From Ichthyobacterium seriolicida (GTDB lineage: Bacteria; Bacteroidota; Bacteroidia; Flavobacteriales; Ichthyobacteriaceae): a DNA stretch of 50,548 nucleotides. The position numbers and the translations under genes were made by a program. The notes under the pieces were generated by a model. The model did no database searches. It had not been told where the DNA came from and was given only the letters and a program-made list of their open reading frames with translations. The DNA is taken from contig NZ_AP014564.1 of NCBI RefSeq assembly GCF_002369955.1, forward strand, positions 839,245 to 889,792, read 5' to 3'. This document shows, piece after piece, positions 2,328 to 48,439 of this stretch. Position 1 is the first letter of the stretch, and each line of letters starts with the position of its first letter.

Positions 2328-3663
2328 GACACTATCCTGAAAAGTGTGTAAAGTTTATATTTAGGATAAAAAAAAACTAGATATTTAAAAAAACAATTAA
2401 AACTTTATACAAATGAAAAAAGAAGATTTATTAAAAGATGAATTCTTAAAGCAATTCAAAACAGGAGAAGATCTGCTATCATTTCTAAAAGACATTCAGA
2501 GACGAGGTATTGAAAAGATTCTAGAAGGGGAATTAGATTCACATTTGGATTATTCTAAATATGAGCAATCAAAGAATACAAATTTCCACAATGGCTATTC
2601 TACAAAAAATGTTAGGACATCATTAGGAGAGAGCAAAATTAAAGTTCCAAGAGATAGAGATTCCTCTTTTAATCCTATGTTAATCCCTAAACGCAAGAAT
2701 ATGGCAGAAGGATTAGAAAATATAATCATCAGTTTTTATGCCAAGGGGATGAGTAACTCAGACATAGAGGATCAAATACAAGAGTTATACAATTTTGATA
2801 TTTCTACATCTACCATATCCCGTATCACAGATAGAGTGACAAATGATATCATAGCCTGGCAAAATAGACCTCTAGAGCCTGTATATTTGATAGTTTGGAT
2901 GGATGATATAGTATTTAAAGTTAGGGAGAATTCCAAAGTGATCAACAAGAGTATGTACATCGCTATTGGCCTTGGTAGAGATAGGAAAAAAGAAGTATTA
3001 GGCTTATGGTTAGGGAAGAATGAATCCTCTGCCTTTTGGATGAACGTATTAACGGATTTAAAGGCTAGAGGAGTTGAGGATATACTTATCACAGCTACGG
3101 ATAATTTAAATGGCTTTACCCAAACTATAAAAAATGTATTTCCTGAATCCACAACACAAATATGTGTAGTACATCAAATCAGGAATTCAAGCAGATATGT
3201 AGTATGTAAGGATAAAAAGACGTTTTTTAATGACATGAAATCAATATACAATTCCCCTACTAAACAATCAGCTGAGGCTGCCCTAAATGACTTTGCAAAA
3301 ACATGGGAATCTAAGTATTCCTATGCTGTTAAAAGCTAGCGAGATAACTGGGAGAAATTGTCTGCTTTTTATGAGTTTCCCGTAGAAATCAGGAAAATTA
3401 TTTACACGACCAACTTGATTGAAAACCTCAATGGAAAAATCAGAAAATATACCAAAAACAAATTGTCATTCCCAACTGATGATGCTGTTATGAAATCTAC
3501 TTTTTTAGCCCTGAGGGAGGCTACAAAAAAATGGTCCAAACCCATACCAAATTGGGAAATAATCCTGAATCAATTTTTAACTATTTTTGACGAAAGAGTT
3601 CGACTATGAATAAAAACAAAAAAATATGTCATTTTTTATTTACACACTTTAAGGGGTAGTGTC
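2328..3663 (+). mobile_element. IS256-family insertion sequence, full length
   Basis: The element is 1336 bp, bounded by imperfect inverted repeats: GACACTATCCTGAAAAGTGT on the left, and on the right the reverse complement of GACACTACCCCTTAAAGTGT. One transposase frame runs through it with a single in-frame stop. No matching target duplication is seen, because the left flank is another truncated copy and the right flank is the second lipoprotein segment. Relics of the same element occur at 12820, 14607, 47743 and 49123. Confidence 0.85.
2413..3609 (+). pseudogene. IS256-family (mutator-type) transposase with in-frame amber stop
   Basis: The protein would be 398 residues, normal for IS256. 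The N-terminal region has GIEKILEGELDSHLDY and NFHNGYSTKNVRTSLGE. The DDE fold includes VWMDDIVFKVRE, TATDNLNGF (second Asp) and a C-terminal part with [17 protein letters not shown] (catalytic Glu). At 3337-3339 a TAG replaces what is probably a Trp codon (TGG) in SWRDNW. The frame continues uninterrupted to 3609, so a single point mutation has inactivated it unless the stop is suppressed. Both halves otherwise look intact, which suggests recent loss. Confidence 0.85.
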
Positions 3664-12812: not shown

Positions 12813-12953
12813 TTATACGAATATAAACTTTACACACTTTTCACGATAGTGTCTGTTGTTAATAGTGTTGCTTAAAAAGTGTGGGTGCCCTTCGTTACCA
12901 AACAATTCTATAGATGCTTCCTCTAATTTGGCTTCTGTAAATTTTGTACTCAT
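12813..12953 (-). pseudogene. hsdR: Type I restriction endonuclease HsdR, N-terminal fragment
   Basis: The frame begins at an ATG at 12953, 14 bp after the reverse-transcriptase stop, and reads MSTKFTEAKLEEASIELFG then NEGHPHFLSNTI. The FTEAKLEEAxIELxxNEGxPH block is the characteristic start of many type I R subunits. After about 36 codons it runs into an IS256-like end (12820-12853) and a chance stop, so all nuclease and motor domains are gone. The intact start and the close spacing show that the RT gene was once expressed just upstream of hsdR in the same operon. Confidence 0.7.
12820..12853 (-). repeat. IS256-like terminal relic bounding the hsdR fragment
   Basis: Read on the minus strand, GACACTATCGTGAAAAGTGT and the following GTAAAGTTTATATT match the left end of the IS256 at 2328. 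Only about 34 bp remain. The tip faces the RT islet. Just left of it, near 12795-12815, a degenerate sequence recalls the IS1380 end but is too decayed to call. Confidence 0.7.
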
Positions 12954-12967
12954 TTTATCCTAATTAT

Positions 12968-14506
12968 TTATGATAACATTTTATCGTAAGACCCCAGTTG
13001 TTCAGTTTCATATTTTGAGAAGCTGATATCTAATTTGTTCACTTTTTCATCATTTACAATTTTGGTTTTATCTACAATTACTTTGAAATCATTGTTTAGC
13101 CAATCTGACTGCCATAATATTGTATCATTATTAGTTACCTTTTTGCATAGGTTACTATTGTAGGTTGTATCTACATCGATTTTGAGTGTTAACCTTTGCA
13201 ACCAAACATTTAGGTAGTTTGTATTAGGAAGCTGACTGAACTTGTTTTTGATTTTTGAGATTATTTCCTTGCGTTCATTTTCATTTTCAATTTTGACAAT
13301 CAAAAAGCTAATAGAGCCTGTTACTAAAGGGTATAAACGAGGATTGCTGTATGCTAAATTTATTAAGATACTTATCAAAACTTCTGGATTTTGAATCTCT
13401 TTAATTACCTTTTTATCTTCATATTGTTCTTTGGGTTCTTCACGTTTTTGTAGCCAATCTAAAAAGAGTTTTACTTCCTTATAAAGTGTACCAGAATTAG
13501 GGAATTTTTGACCTAAAACATAAAGCTGTAATAACCATTTTTGTATGTTTTCAGTCTTACGCTTGTTATAAATCCAATGGATTTTATCTTGTTTTAAAGC
13601 TCCCAAAACTAAATCGTTGTTATCAATTGTTTTTTGGCTATTAACCTTGAAATTTAATTCTGATAAAACCTCTGATAATTCTTTAGCTATAAGCGAAGCG
13701 TTTTGAGGATTTGCAGTAAAAATTCTATAATCGTCACGGTATCTTATGATTTTGTAATCTGTGATGTTCTTATCAATCAATTTTTCCGTCAATTGTAAGT
13801 CTGCATAACCTAATACCATTTCAGCTATAAAATCCATTAAGACTGAACCTTGAGGTATTCCATTGGTTTGACCATTAGACATATCCTGAATGCGCCAATC
13901 AATAATATTACCTATAAAATCTTTATTTTTTCTATTCTCAGTTTTTTTAGCTTTTTCTTTGGTATGTAACGCCCAAACTATGCTATGTGTGTAAAGGGAA
14001 CCATAACAGTCTGCAATATCTAAATGTAGAACGTGATTAAATTCTAAAGCTAATGTTATAGAACGTTGCTCAACTTTGTTCCACCATTCGTAGATTTGAT
14101 TTTCTTTTGCTGATTTATCTTCAGTATTTAAAACAGGAATACTATGGCATTCAATTTTAGGGTTTTGTGCATAGCCTTTAAAACAGTCTGTAATGGTAGT
14201 CCAATGGTTTTCTTGAGTAATGCTATGAATAAGATTAACATAAATAGCAGGATGAATTATTTCAAATGGTCGCCAAGCAAATTTTCCGTCTTTATTGTGT
14301 AGAATCTTATAGTTTACACCTTCTGTATCTCTTACCTTTTGAGCTGATTTTATTTCCTTTAATTCTCTTCCAGACAATTTCTTGTCAAGAGTATTTAGCA
14401 TCTCTTGAAAGGTTATATAATCTGGTAATTCTACAGAAAAATATTTACTCTCTTCAAGAAAGTAAGCCTTAGCTTCTGTATGGTCTAAATCTAAAACTGT
14501 TTTCAT
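12968..14506 (-). CDS. Reverse transcriptase of the UG/DRT (defence-associated) class
   Basis: A 512-residue intact protein with an RT palm/fingers domain. Motif A is HLDIADCYGS with the catalytic Asp at 163, motif B NGIPQGSVLMDF at 215-226, and the active site YRDD at 256-259 (D258 and D259). Motif D/E-like sequence follows (LNFKVNSQKT). The residue between Tyr and the Asp pair is Arg, unlike the Ala of group II intron and most retron enzymes. There is no maturase or X domain and no HNH. The C-terminal 200 residues are helical, with repeat-like segments (LISILINLAYSNPRLYPLV), as in AbiK/AbiA-like and other unknown-group RTs linked to phage defence. No msr/msd-type structure was recognised next to it. 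It overlaps an upstream frame by ATGA and precedes hsdR by 14 bp. The exact UG subgroup cannot be assigned by eye. Confidence 0.8.
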   Translation of the reverse strand: MKTVLDLDHTEAKAYFLEESKYFSVELPDYITFQEMLNTLDKKLSGRELKEIKSAQKVRDTEGVNYKILHNKDGKFAWRPFEIIHPAIYVNLIHSITQENHWTTITDCFKGYAQNPKIECHSIPVLNTEDKSAKENQIYEWWNKVEQRSITLALEFNHVLHLDIADCYGSLYTHSIVWALHTKEKAKKTENRKNKDFIGNIIDWRIQDMSNGQTNGIPQGSVLMDFIAEMVLGYADLQLTEKLIDKNITDYKIIRYRDDYRIFTANPQNASLIAKELSEVLSELNFKVNSQKTIDNNDLVLGALKQDKIHWIYNKRKTENIQKWLLQLYVLGQKFPNSGTLYKEVKLFLDWLQKREEPKEQYEDKKVIKEIQNPEVLISILINLAYSNPRLYPLVTGSISFLIVKIENENERKEIISKIKNKFSQLPNTNYLNVWLQRLTLKIDVDTTYNSNLCKKVTNNDTILWQSDWLNNDFKVIVDKTKIVNDEKVNKLDISFSKYETEQLGSYDKMLS

Positions 14507-14606
14507 ATAGTTGCATTTTCAAGTTCTGTATTTACTACAACACCTCTCATTAATACTCGACAAATGGGTTTTGTACTGGCTTTTAATTGCTCATTGATAC
14601 GTTTGC
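14503..14606 (-). pseudogene. 3' end of an unidentified gene coupled to the RT
   Basis: A frame without its start runs into the RT gene. Its final residues are INEQLKASTKPICRVLMRG then VVVNTELENATI, with TGA overlapping the RT start as ATGA. Such an overlap is typical of a co-translated operon gene. The 5' part is lost at the IS256-like end at 14607. The family is not recognised. HsdS would be expected from the position between the modification and restriction genes, but the residues seen do not prove it. Confidence 0.5.
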
Positions 14607-14636
14607 ATAAACTTTACACACTTTAAGGGATAGTGT
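14607..14636 (-). repeat. IS256-like terminal relic on the ligA side of the islet
   Basis: On the minus strand, ACACTATCCCTTAAAGTGTG and the following TAAAGTTTAT match the IS256 left end over about 30 bp. It is in the same orientation as the relic at 12820-12853, so the RT islet is bounded by two directly repeated ends rather than an inverted pair. Confidence 0.7.
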
Positions 14637-14720
14637 ATTTATTTATGTACGTCTTGTGTGGCTAGAAACTGGGTTTAACTTTTAATAATGTCTGGTTTTT
14701 AACTCAATTTATTAATCATT

Positions 14721-16724
14721 TTAGCTTAACATCTCCAAAAAGTCGTATTCACTTATTATAGGAATATTTAGCTCGTTGGCTTTTTGCAGTTTTGCAGTTC
14801 CCATATTTTTTCCCCCTATTATAAAAGAAGTATTTTTAGATATAGCTGAAGTGTTTTTTCCGCCATTTTGTTCTATCATATTTTTTATTTCTGTTCGTTG
14901 AAGTTTTTCGAAAACACCTGAAATCACAAAACTTTTACCTCCTAATACATTAGTATCTAATTCAATAGGGTTCAATTCACTTTTCATTTGTATGCCGTAT
15001 TCTTTTAAACTATTTATCAGAGCACAATTCTTCAAATCACTGAAATAGTTTAGAATGCTAATAGCTATCTTATCTCCTACATCGTCTACTTCTATCAAAT
15101 CTTCAAAGGTCGTTTTTGATAAAGTGTCTATATCTCCATATTGTATAGCGATTTTTTTAGCTAATGTCTCACCTACATGTCTTATGCCAAGAGCATACAG
15201 AACTCTATGGAATGGAACTTCTTTAGATTTTGAGATTCCGTTTATGATGTTCTGTGCGGATTTTTGTGCTATCCTCTCCAGATTGATTATATCTTCTTCT
15301 TTCAAGGCGTATAAATCAGCTATATCTCTTATAATATTTTTTTCAAAAAACAGATCTATAGTTTCACTTCCCAAACCATCTATATTCATGGCTTTTCTGC
15401 TTATAAAATGTTCTATCTTGCCTTTTATCTGAGGAGGACAATAATCTGAATTAACACAGTAATGCTGACTTTCATTCTCTCCTCTAACCAAAAGGGAATC
15501 ACATTGAGGACAACTTTTTATAAAAATGGTAGGAGTCGAATCAACGTGTCTCTTAGAAGTATCCACACTGACTATTTTAGGTATTATTTCTCCTCCTTTT
15601 TCTATACAGACTGTATCTCCTTGTCTTATATCCATTTTACTTATAAAATCTGCATTGTAAATGGAAGCCCTTTTTACAATCGTATCGGCTAGGATGACAG
15701 GTTCTAAGTTAGCCACAGGGGTTATGGCTCCTGTTCTGCCTACTTGATAATCTATGCTTTTTAGCAAGGTGATTGCTTGTTCAGATTGAAATTTATAAGA
15801 TATAGCCCAACGAGGAGATTTAGCCGTAAATCCTAATTCTTCTTGATGGTTGTAATCATTTACCTTTATGACTATTCCATCTGTGTTGAAATTCAAGTCT
15901 TTGCGCTTTTGATCCCAATATTTCACAAAGTCATAAACCTCATCTATATTATTTGCTAGTTTAGAAGTATCTGGCAATTCAAATCCCCATTCAACGATTT
16001 TTTGCAATCCTATGTAGTGTTTGTCAAAAGTCAGACCTTCACCTAAAACATGGTATACAAAACATATTAAAGGTCTTTTTGCCACCTCCTTACTGTCGTG
16101 TAGTTTTAGAGTGCCAGAAGCGGCATTTCTAGCATTTATAAAAGGTTCTAAATCATTATTTATACGATGCTCATTTAGTTTTTTAAATCCATCTTTACTC
16201 ATTAAGATCTCACCTCTAACTTCTAGATCTTCAGGAAAATCACCTTTTAATTCAAGAGGAATAGAATTTATGGTTTTGACATTGTCTGTAATATCATCTC
16301 CCTGAACGCCATCTCCTCTGGTTATAGCTTTGTATAATTTGCCTCCTCTATATAAAATACTTACGGCAACTCCATCGTATTTTAACTCACATACATATTC
16401 CAAATCATTTTCTATAACTTTCTTTACTCTAATATCGAATTGTTCTAGCTCTTCTTTAGAGTAGGTATTTGACAAAGAGTACATCTTTCTTTGATGAACT
16501 ACAGTTTTAAATTTTTTGTTTACACTTCCTCCTATTCTCTTTGTGGGGGAGTTGACATCTTGAAATTGAGGATATTCTTTTTCTAATTCTTGAAGTTCTT
16601 CTAGTAATTTATCAAATTCGTAATCTGAGATAACTGGAGAGTCTAAGTCGTAATAGTAATGGTTATGCTCTAATAGCTTTGAAGATAATTCTCTTATCCT
16701 TTTTTCAACACTGGTTATATTCAT
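14721..16724 (-). CDS. ligA: NAD-dependent DNA ligase LigA
   Basis: The enzyme seals nicks in replication and repair using NAD. The product is 667 residues from MNITSVEKRIRELSSKL. The longer frame starting at 16790 is rejected because a good -7 element lies at 16752-16759, between the two starts. Visible parts are the Ia domain with YYDLDSPVISDYEFDKLL and the adenylation site CELKYDGVAVS (Lys nucleophile). These are followed by the OB fold, a Cys4 zinc finger (CPQCDSLLV...CVNSDYC), helix-hairpin-helix motifs and a C-terminal BRCT domain (LGGKSFVISGVFE to IISEYDFLEML). Confidence 0.96.
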   Translation of the reverse strand: MNITSVEKRIRELSSKLLEHNHYYYDLDSPVISDYEFDKLLEELQELEKEYPQFQDVNSPTKRIGGSVNKKFKTVVHQRKMYSLSNTYSKEELEQFDIRVKKVIENDLEYVCELKYDGVAVSILYRGGKLYKAITRGDGVQGDDITDNVKTINSIPLELKGDFPEDLEVRGEILMSKDGFKKLNEHRINNDLEPFINARNAASGTLKLHDSKEVAKRPLICFVYHVLGEGLTFDKHYIGLQKIVEWGFELPDTSKLANNIDEVYDFVKYWDQKRKDLNFNTDGIVIKVNDYNHQEELGFTAKSPRWAISYKFQSEQAITLLKSIDYQVGRTGAITPVANLEPVILADTIVKRASIYNADFISKMDIRQGDTVCIEKGGEIIPKIVSVDTSKRHVDSTPTIFIKSCPQCDSLLVRGENESQHYCVNSDYCPPQIKGKIEHFISRKAMNIDGLGSETIDLFFEKNIIRDIADLYALKEEDIINLERIAQKSAQNIINGISKSKEVPFHRVLYALGIRHVGETLAKKIAIQYGDIDTLSKTTFEDLIEVDDVGDKIAISILNYFSDLKNCALINSLKEYGIQMKSELNPIELDTNVLGGKSFVISGVFEKLQRTEIKNMIEQNGGKNTSAISKNTSFIIGGKNMGTAKLQKANELNIPIISEYDFLEMLS

Positions 16725-16751
16725 ATATTTACTGGCTTTTCTCTTATGTGG

Positions 16752-16759
16752 CAAAGGTA
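16752..16759 (-). promoter_or_regulatory. -7 element of ligA
   Basis: TACCTTTG on the minus strand fits TAnnTTTG and lies 27 bp before the chosen ligA start. It argues against the upstream ATG. Confidence 0.5.
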
Positions 16760-16813
16760 ATGAAGATTGTTTCCAAGAATGTATTCCCAAAATAAAAAAG
16801 TAGTTAAAAGTTT

Positions 16814-47742: not shown

Positions 47743-48439
47743 GACACTATTCTGAAAAATTTGTAAAATTTATATTTAGGATAGAAAAATCTAGACATTT
47801 TAAAAAAACAATTAAAACTTTATACAAATGAAAAAAAGAAGATTTATTAAAAGATGAATTCTTAAAACAATTCAAAACAGGAGAAGATCTGATGTCATTT
47901 CTAAAAGAAATTCAGAGACGTGGGATTGAAAAGATTCTAGAAGGGGAATTAGGTTCACATTTGGATTATTCTAAATATGAGCAATCAAACAATACAAATT
48001 TCCACAATGGCTATTATACAGAGAATGTTAGGGCATCATTAGGAGAGAGCAAGACTAAAGTTCCAAGAGATAGAGATTTTTCTTTTAATCCTAACAGAAT
48101 TCATCAATTAGACAAAATATTTCTGTGATTTTGGAGCAAGTTATCATGCCTGTTTTTTTTAGAATTAAAACGTTGAATTTTAGAGCGTTAGATTACTCTA
48201 AATCCATTAATTATTTAATTACCCTAAGTGATTATTAATCGAACTCAGGTAACTAATGATAGTGTTATGAAGTCTACTTTTTAGTTCTGAGGAAGGTTAC
48301 AAAAAAATGCCCCAAACCCATACCAAATTGGGGAATAATCCTGAATCAATTTTTAACTATTTTTTACAAAAGAGTTTGACTATGAATAAAAACAAAAAAA
48401 TATGTCATTTTTTATTTACACATTTTAAGAGATAGTGTC
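47743..48439 (+). pseudogene. IS256 relic with nested IS982 fragment
   Basis: The left end GACACTATTCTGAAAAATTT and the right end (complement of GACACTATCTCTTAAAATGT) bound a shortened IS256. The transposase starts at 47828, but an extra A in the run after ATG shifts the frame. The N-terminal sequence GIEKILEGELGSHLDY is then readable to about 48094, where IS982 sequence (48095-48250) replaces the middle. The last about 100 bp of the gene follow (KPIPNWGIIL-like). Confidence 0.82.
48095..48250 (-). mobile_element. IS982 fragment inside the IS256 relic
   Basis: This is the promoter-side end of IS982, nearly identical to 30421-30567. It carries the first about 18 transposase codons ([17 protein letters not shown]) and the complete terminal repeat ATTAATCGAACTCAGGT. 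It shows the intact form of the repeat that MITE-A interrupted in the 29.6-kb copy. Confidence 0.8.

Follow-up and report, generated by a model that had tools for sequence, protein, structure and literature searches.

Within the window analyzed here (the whole stretch of 50,548 nucleotides from Ichthyobacterium seriolicida), we found an intact minus-strand gene for an AbiP2-family reverse transcriptase (RT)-like polymerase of 512 amino acids (positions 12968 to 14506), lying between the two remaining ends of a type I restriction operon. On its upstream side, a 3′ stub of hsdS (14503 to 14604, minus strand; 33 codons plus a TGA stop) runs into the RT gene, and on its downstream side, a 33-codon 5′ stub of hsdR (12855 to 12953, minus strand) follows after a spacer of 14 bp (12954 to 12967). 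Beyond each stub stands an IS256-family end. The flanks of the whole segment are ligA and a sigma-factor gene (the ligA-rpoD interval), with no defense genes. The original prediction had described a complete 512-residue RT with a YRDD motif (which we place at residues 256 to 259) and a 14-bp spacing between the RT stop and the hsdR start, and it was accurate on both counts; the hsdS stub and the IS ends beside both stubs were absent from it.

The same prediction had placed the RT in an unknown group, an assignment that we replace with AbiP2. In a PADLOC profile search, residues 1 to 504 matched AbiP2 (E = 1.8e-187, 622 bits), with RT_UG14 as the second-best family (177 bits, 1e-52), and the best relative of solved structure by sequence was Abi-P2 (PDB 7r08; E = 4e-84, about 33 to 35% identity). 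A structural model built from 29 aligned relatives (pLDDT 89.7) has the Abi-type fold of RT palm, fingers, and C-terminal helical domain; its alignment with 7r08 gave a Z score of 38.1 over 466 residues at 2.5 Å, and the next matches were DRT6 (Z 24.9), DRT4 (23.5), UG15 (21.5), and AbiK (20.6). DRT6, DRT4, AbiK, and AbiA share with the window RT an RT-like palm and fingers plus a helical domain, but they differ in scoring a Z of 25 or less, versus 38 for Abi-P2, at 11 to 21% identity. Identities as a group II intron, retron, or DGR were rejected, their profile and fold matches being much weaker. Profile and modeled fold thus indicate a new member of the AbiP2 family. The window RT resembles Abi-P2 of the Escherichia coli P2-like prophage in full-length sequence and fold, in its priming tyrosine, YRDD motif, and helical C-terminal domain, and in having no extra effector domain. 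Unlike Abi-P2, it has a Bacteroidota-type host and sits between hsdS and hsdR stubs rather than in a prophage hotspot.

Abi-P2 is reported to be a trimer that synthesizes untemplated DNA; its Y61F mutation abolishes synthesis, whereas Y46F is tolerated (PMC9508834). Because the residue numbers of that report fit the chain numbering of 7r08 (an offset of 31), Tyr61 corresponds to Y30 of the window RT and Tyr46 to Y15. In an alignment of homologues, Y30, which aligns with residue 61 of the 7r08 chain, was invariant in 70 of 70, as were D163 and the YRDD motif, and Y15 varied (phenylalanine in 47 and tyrosine in 18 of the 70). The conservation of Y30 agrees with a protein-priming mechanism for what is, as far as sequence can tell, a predicted polymerase activity.

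The hsdR stub, MSTKFTEAKLEEASIELFGNEGHPHFLSNTINN (12953 to 12855), had been taken for a genuine hsdR start, and our searches bear this out. It is 58 to 64% identical to the N termini of HsdR proteins of 1,048 to 1,085 amino acids from genomes of the window's own order (one further match lay in an incomplete frame). The five best alignments score 88 to 110 under BLOSUM62, whereas none of 200 shuffles exceeded 51. The top matching open reading frame carries the Pfam domains HSDR_N, SWI2_SNF2, and T1RH-like_C, the HsdR N terminus of one intact operon of the same order (L140) is identical to the stub at 18 of 28 positions, and most of the plasmid matches are annotated as type I restriction endonucleases. 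The cutoff after about 36 codons that was originally proposed needs correction: hsdR ends at codon 33, and the IS256-family end begins at codon 34. The hsdS stub, KRINEQLKASTKPICRVLMRGVV, aligns with the C terminus of the Pfam Methylase_S protein (HsdS) in L140 with a score of 96 (20 shuffles gave 49 or less), and its TGA overlaps the RT start as ATGA, an overlap of 4 nucleotides. A hmmscan of both stubs against Pfam and PADLOC returned nothing relevant (one chance Pfam match, E = 0.03); the stubs are too short for this method, and their identification was therefore made by pairwise and genome searches.

A pattern scan revealed that both stubs stop at the same 30- to 31-bp repeat, GACACTATCnnnnAAAGTGTGTAAAGTTTAT, present in direct orientation with its copies 1784 bp apart. 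The first copy, the IS256-family left-end inverted repeat TACACTATCCCTTAAAGTGTGTAAAGTTTAT (14607 to 14637, minus strand), abuts the hsdS stub with its outer end toward ligA; the second, GACACTATCGTGAAAAGTGTGTAAAGTTTAT (12823 to 12853, minus strand), lies where hsdR stops and is oriented like the first. This left end is identical to that preceding MKKEDLLKDEFLKQFKTGE transposase starts, and the genome contains its 18-bp core 11 times without mismatch, in most cases ahead of an IS256-family transposase start. Since both stubs end at this repeat, the truncations are IS-associated on both sides, and an hsdM-hsdS-RT-hsdR operon has been trimmed from its two ends. A composite transposon was ruled out, as the two copies are both left ends and point the same way, and we saw no transposase body and no obvious target duplication for the IS pair around the RT segment. 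Elsewhere in the window there are further IS256-family left ends at 2131 to 2160, 2328 to 2357, and 47743 to 47772, the first two standing in tandem 197 bp apart, and a transposase frame (2413 to 3339) that is broken by a TAG codon. Genome-wide, there are 35 transposase_mut (IS256-family) matches, nearly all of them fragments, and an element of this family apparently multiplied across the genome before falling into decay.

No intact set of hsdM, hsdS, and hsdR stands at the locus, which retains just two 33-codon stubs, and when the 1.92-Mb genome was searched with HsdR and HsdM of a sister operon, nothing else closely related to the wrecked operon turned up. The best matches, at 33% (HsdR) and 43% (HsdM), were to the R and M subunits of another type I operon; apart from three other type I operons, whose subunits were recovered, these searches gave only a fourth, weaker match to HsdM. 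Three intact type I restriction-modification (RM) operons of three classes are present (G000:C1 at about 10.6 to 16.8 kb, 753 to 760 kb, and 1758 to 1764 kb; L112, L111, and L113). The statement that the RT outlived its partner genes holds for the open frame alone.

The neighborhoods of RT homologues, which the original prediction had proposed as a check on the order hsdM-hsdS-RT-hsdR, contain that order intact, and together with the flanking stubs they uphold the claim that before the truncation the RT was part of a type I restriction operon. Neither of the two outcomes that the prediction had named as refuting it was seen. In the nearest relative, from Flavobacterium lacisediminis (L018/L201; 69% identical), the operon is intact and reads hsdM-hsdS-RT-AbiJ-like-ThsA-ThsB-other genes-AbiE pair-hsdR, with about 9 kb of defense cargo, including a TIR-like gene, between hsdS and hsdR (L201, 2360 to 17307; the AbiE pair was named from its sequence and from an annotated AbiEii-hsdR pair). 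We collected 74 homologue loci by protein similarity alone, spanning Bacteroidetes, Planctomycetes, Kiritimatiellae, Proteobacteria, Nitrospirae, Latescibacteria, and others. At 19 of them, the RT belonged to a type I operon and came after hsdS (directly at 15, a few genes on at 4); 16 of these 19 also had hsdR farther downstream in the same orientation. Where hsdS was directly upstream (in L020 as an HsdM-HsdS fusion), the RT overlapped it at 9 of the 15 loci. For 67 RTs, 1 kb or more of upstream sequence was available, and 15 of them directly followed hsdS; of 328 other gene pairs sharing a strand at the same loci, 5 had hsdS as the upstream member (Fisher P = 5e-9, a value that treats as independent loci that are related). 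Most AbiP2 homologues have no RM neighbor, and in a random sample of Bacteroidota, where nine other genomes had an AbiP2 match, one of the seven loci inspected adjoins hsdR (one of the seven being cut off on its upstream side). On the AbiP2 tree, the slot label requires 12 changes, at least 7 of them forced by well-supported branches, compared with 17.7 in shuffles; entry into or exit from the slot by AbiP2 RTs is repeated, yet not random.

The gap between hsdS and hsdR is a general slot for defense cargo. In eight HsdR relatives, it was empty in two and filled in the others with varied genes, among them an OLD-like ATPase with a GmrSD_N protein and an AAA_13 ATPase with RhuM; the latter pair occurs in L140 (1 to 7493), which reads hsdM-hsdS-AAA_13-RhuM-hsdR, the AAA_13 protein (PDC-S06) showing weak similarity to PrrC (E = 3e-12). 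Given that the same gap holds many unrelated defense genes, the RT is best regarded as one of several interchangeable cargos. The cargo-bearing type I operons of the window's order (L136, L140, L142, L143, and L201) have the HsdM/HsdS/HsdR lineage and the slot in common with our locus, but they are intact and carry other cargo, whereas the window keeps only its RT cargo and the two stubs.

We consider it probable that the gene specifies an autonomous AbiP2 effector that was formerly carried as cargo in an hsdM-hsdS-RT-hsdR operon and was orphaned by the IS256-associated loss of its partners. The RT would have ridden in the hsdS-hsdR gap, coexpressed with hsdS by way of the start/stop overlap, until IS256-family insertions and the deletions that followed stripped the operon of hsdM and of hsdS except for its 3′ stub upstream, and left only the first codons of hsdR downstream; the RT would now persist as an intact single-gene module independent of restriction. 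The polymerase itself would need no RNA template: one of its own tyrosines, Y30, would prime DNA synthesis, and the product would be untemplated single-stranded DNA attached to the RT; upon phage infection, it would halt either the cell or the phage. Against this reading, it does not explain the two direct left ends step by step, and the RT frame could be intact because it is too young for decay.

It is also conceivable, if rather unlikely, that the operon promoter was lost with the truncation and that the RT is a silent relic, unexpressed and decaying. Scans upstream of the RT for sigma-70 promoters, and of about 290 bp there for the Bacteroidota-type pattern (TTTG, then TAnnTTTG), found nothing above chance, both neighbors of the gene are stubs, and most genomic IS256 copies are broken, so that IS wreckage is plentiful here. 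(An Rfam search around the RT likewise found no known noncoding RNA family; one sub-threshold match to a nematode snoRNA is a chance match.) On the other hand, all 512 codons are open and all invariant residues are kept. The gene for NAD-dependent DNA ligase, ligA (14721 to 16790, minus strand; its BRCT-like C terminus was read directly), precedes the RT by 214 bp in the same orientation, no terminator-like site was found in the interval, and the RT may be transcribed by read-through from ligA. Substitutions relative to L018 at codon positions 1, 2, and 3 number 122, 65, and 271, a strong third-position bias that speaks for past constraint, mostly from before the truncation; synonymous sites in this comparison are saturated, and dN/dS cannot date selection to after it. 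A further account, in which the 1.8 kb enclosed by the IS ends arrived in the ligA-rpoD interval in one piece, by recombination or transposition via the 30-bp ends, and is not the remainder of an operon once located there, would fit a segment that is bounded by direct copies of one IS end and flanked by ligA and a sigma-factor gene instead of defense genes. We regard it as very improbable: two left ends in direct orientation do not make a pair that can transpose, no target duplication was seen, and the genome has no second copy.

A different kind of alternative, in line with the original suggestion of a joint system in which the RT may act when restriction fails, takes the anticodon nuclease PrrC as its model. 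PrrC resides within the EcoprrI type IC operon, and inhibition of the enzyme by T4 Stp sets PrrC free (PMC12707154, PMC3874165); a general coupling of immunity to suicide has been hypothesized (PMC3506569), which lends this alternative some support. By analogy, the Hsd complex would have kept the RT latent and a phage block of restriction would have freed it, so that the orphan would be either inactive or constitutively on. The RT occupies an operon position comparable to that of PrrC, between hsdS and hsdR (stubs here, intact in relatives), its start overlaps the hsdS stop at many loci, and L140, which has the closest HsdS C terminus, holds its weakly PrrC-like protein in the very same slot. 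Such guarding is nonetheless unlikely, in our judgment. The slot is promiscuous, the RTs that occupy it are scattered over the AbiP2 tree, a single one of the inspected Bacteroidota loci adjoins hsdR, and most AbiP2 RTs do without an RM partner. An E. coli prophage Abi-P2 confers resistance to phage T5 (PMC11077055). Moreover, an RT silenced by Hsd should have been counterselected once Hsd was lost, yet the frame is intact, a mild argument against obligatory silencing. The likeness to EcoprrI also has its limits, since the window RT is a predicted protein-primed DNA polymerase rather than an anticodon nuclease and its partners are gone.

Extending the PrrC model to all AbiP2 polymerases of the hsdS-hsdR slot would make them a joint system in which Hsd silences, and anti-restriction frees, protein-primed synthesis, the orphan then being an Hsd-independent escapee. 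We think this decidedly unlikely as it stands. Type I operons that harbor an embedded effector are, in principle, already known. In the literature that we covered, we found no description of AbiP2 in this slot, and we make no claim of priority. The recurrent, start/stop-coupled position of the RT in type I operons of many phyla offers a concrete hypothesis for how Abi polymerases sense infection, namely, that anti-restriction is what is sensed. For this hypothesis, the natural hsdM-hsdS-RT-hsdR operons provide test material and the orphan RT a matched control, a polymerase of this kind from which evolution has already taken the partners away. Under the preferred reading of an orphaned autonomous effector, the locus shows how cargo can outlast its carrier operon.

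Associations of AbiP2 RTs with other enzymes and elements were also seen. Some lie directly beside type IIG (Eco57I/MmeI-like) enzymes, at L053, L069, L077, and L087 and at the lactobacillus plasmid loci L202 and L204, and type IIG enzymes are thus a second kind of RM partner for these RTs. The window RT was matched in 94 Enterococcus plasmid records, and at L205, on an Enterococcus faecium plasmid with a vanA cluster, an AbiP2-like RT gene has IS30 transposase genes on both sides.
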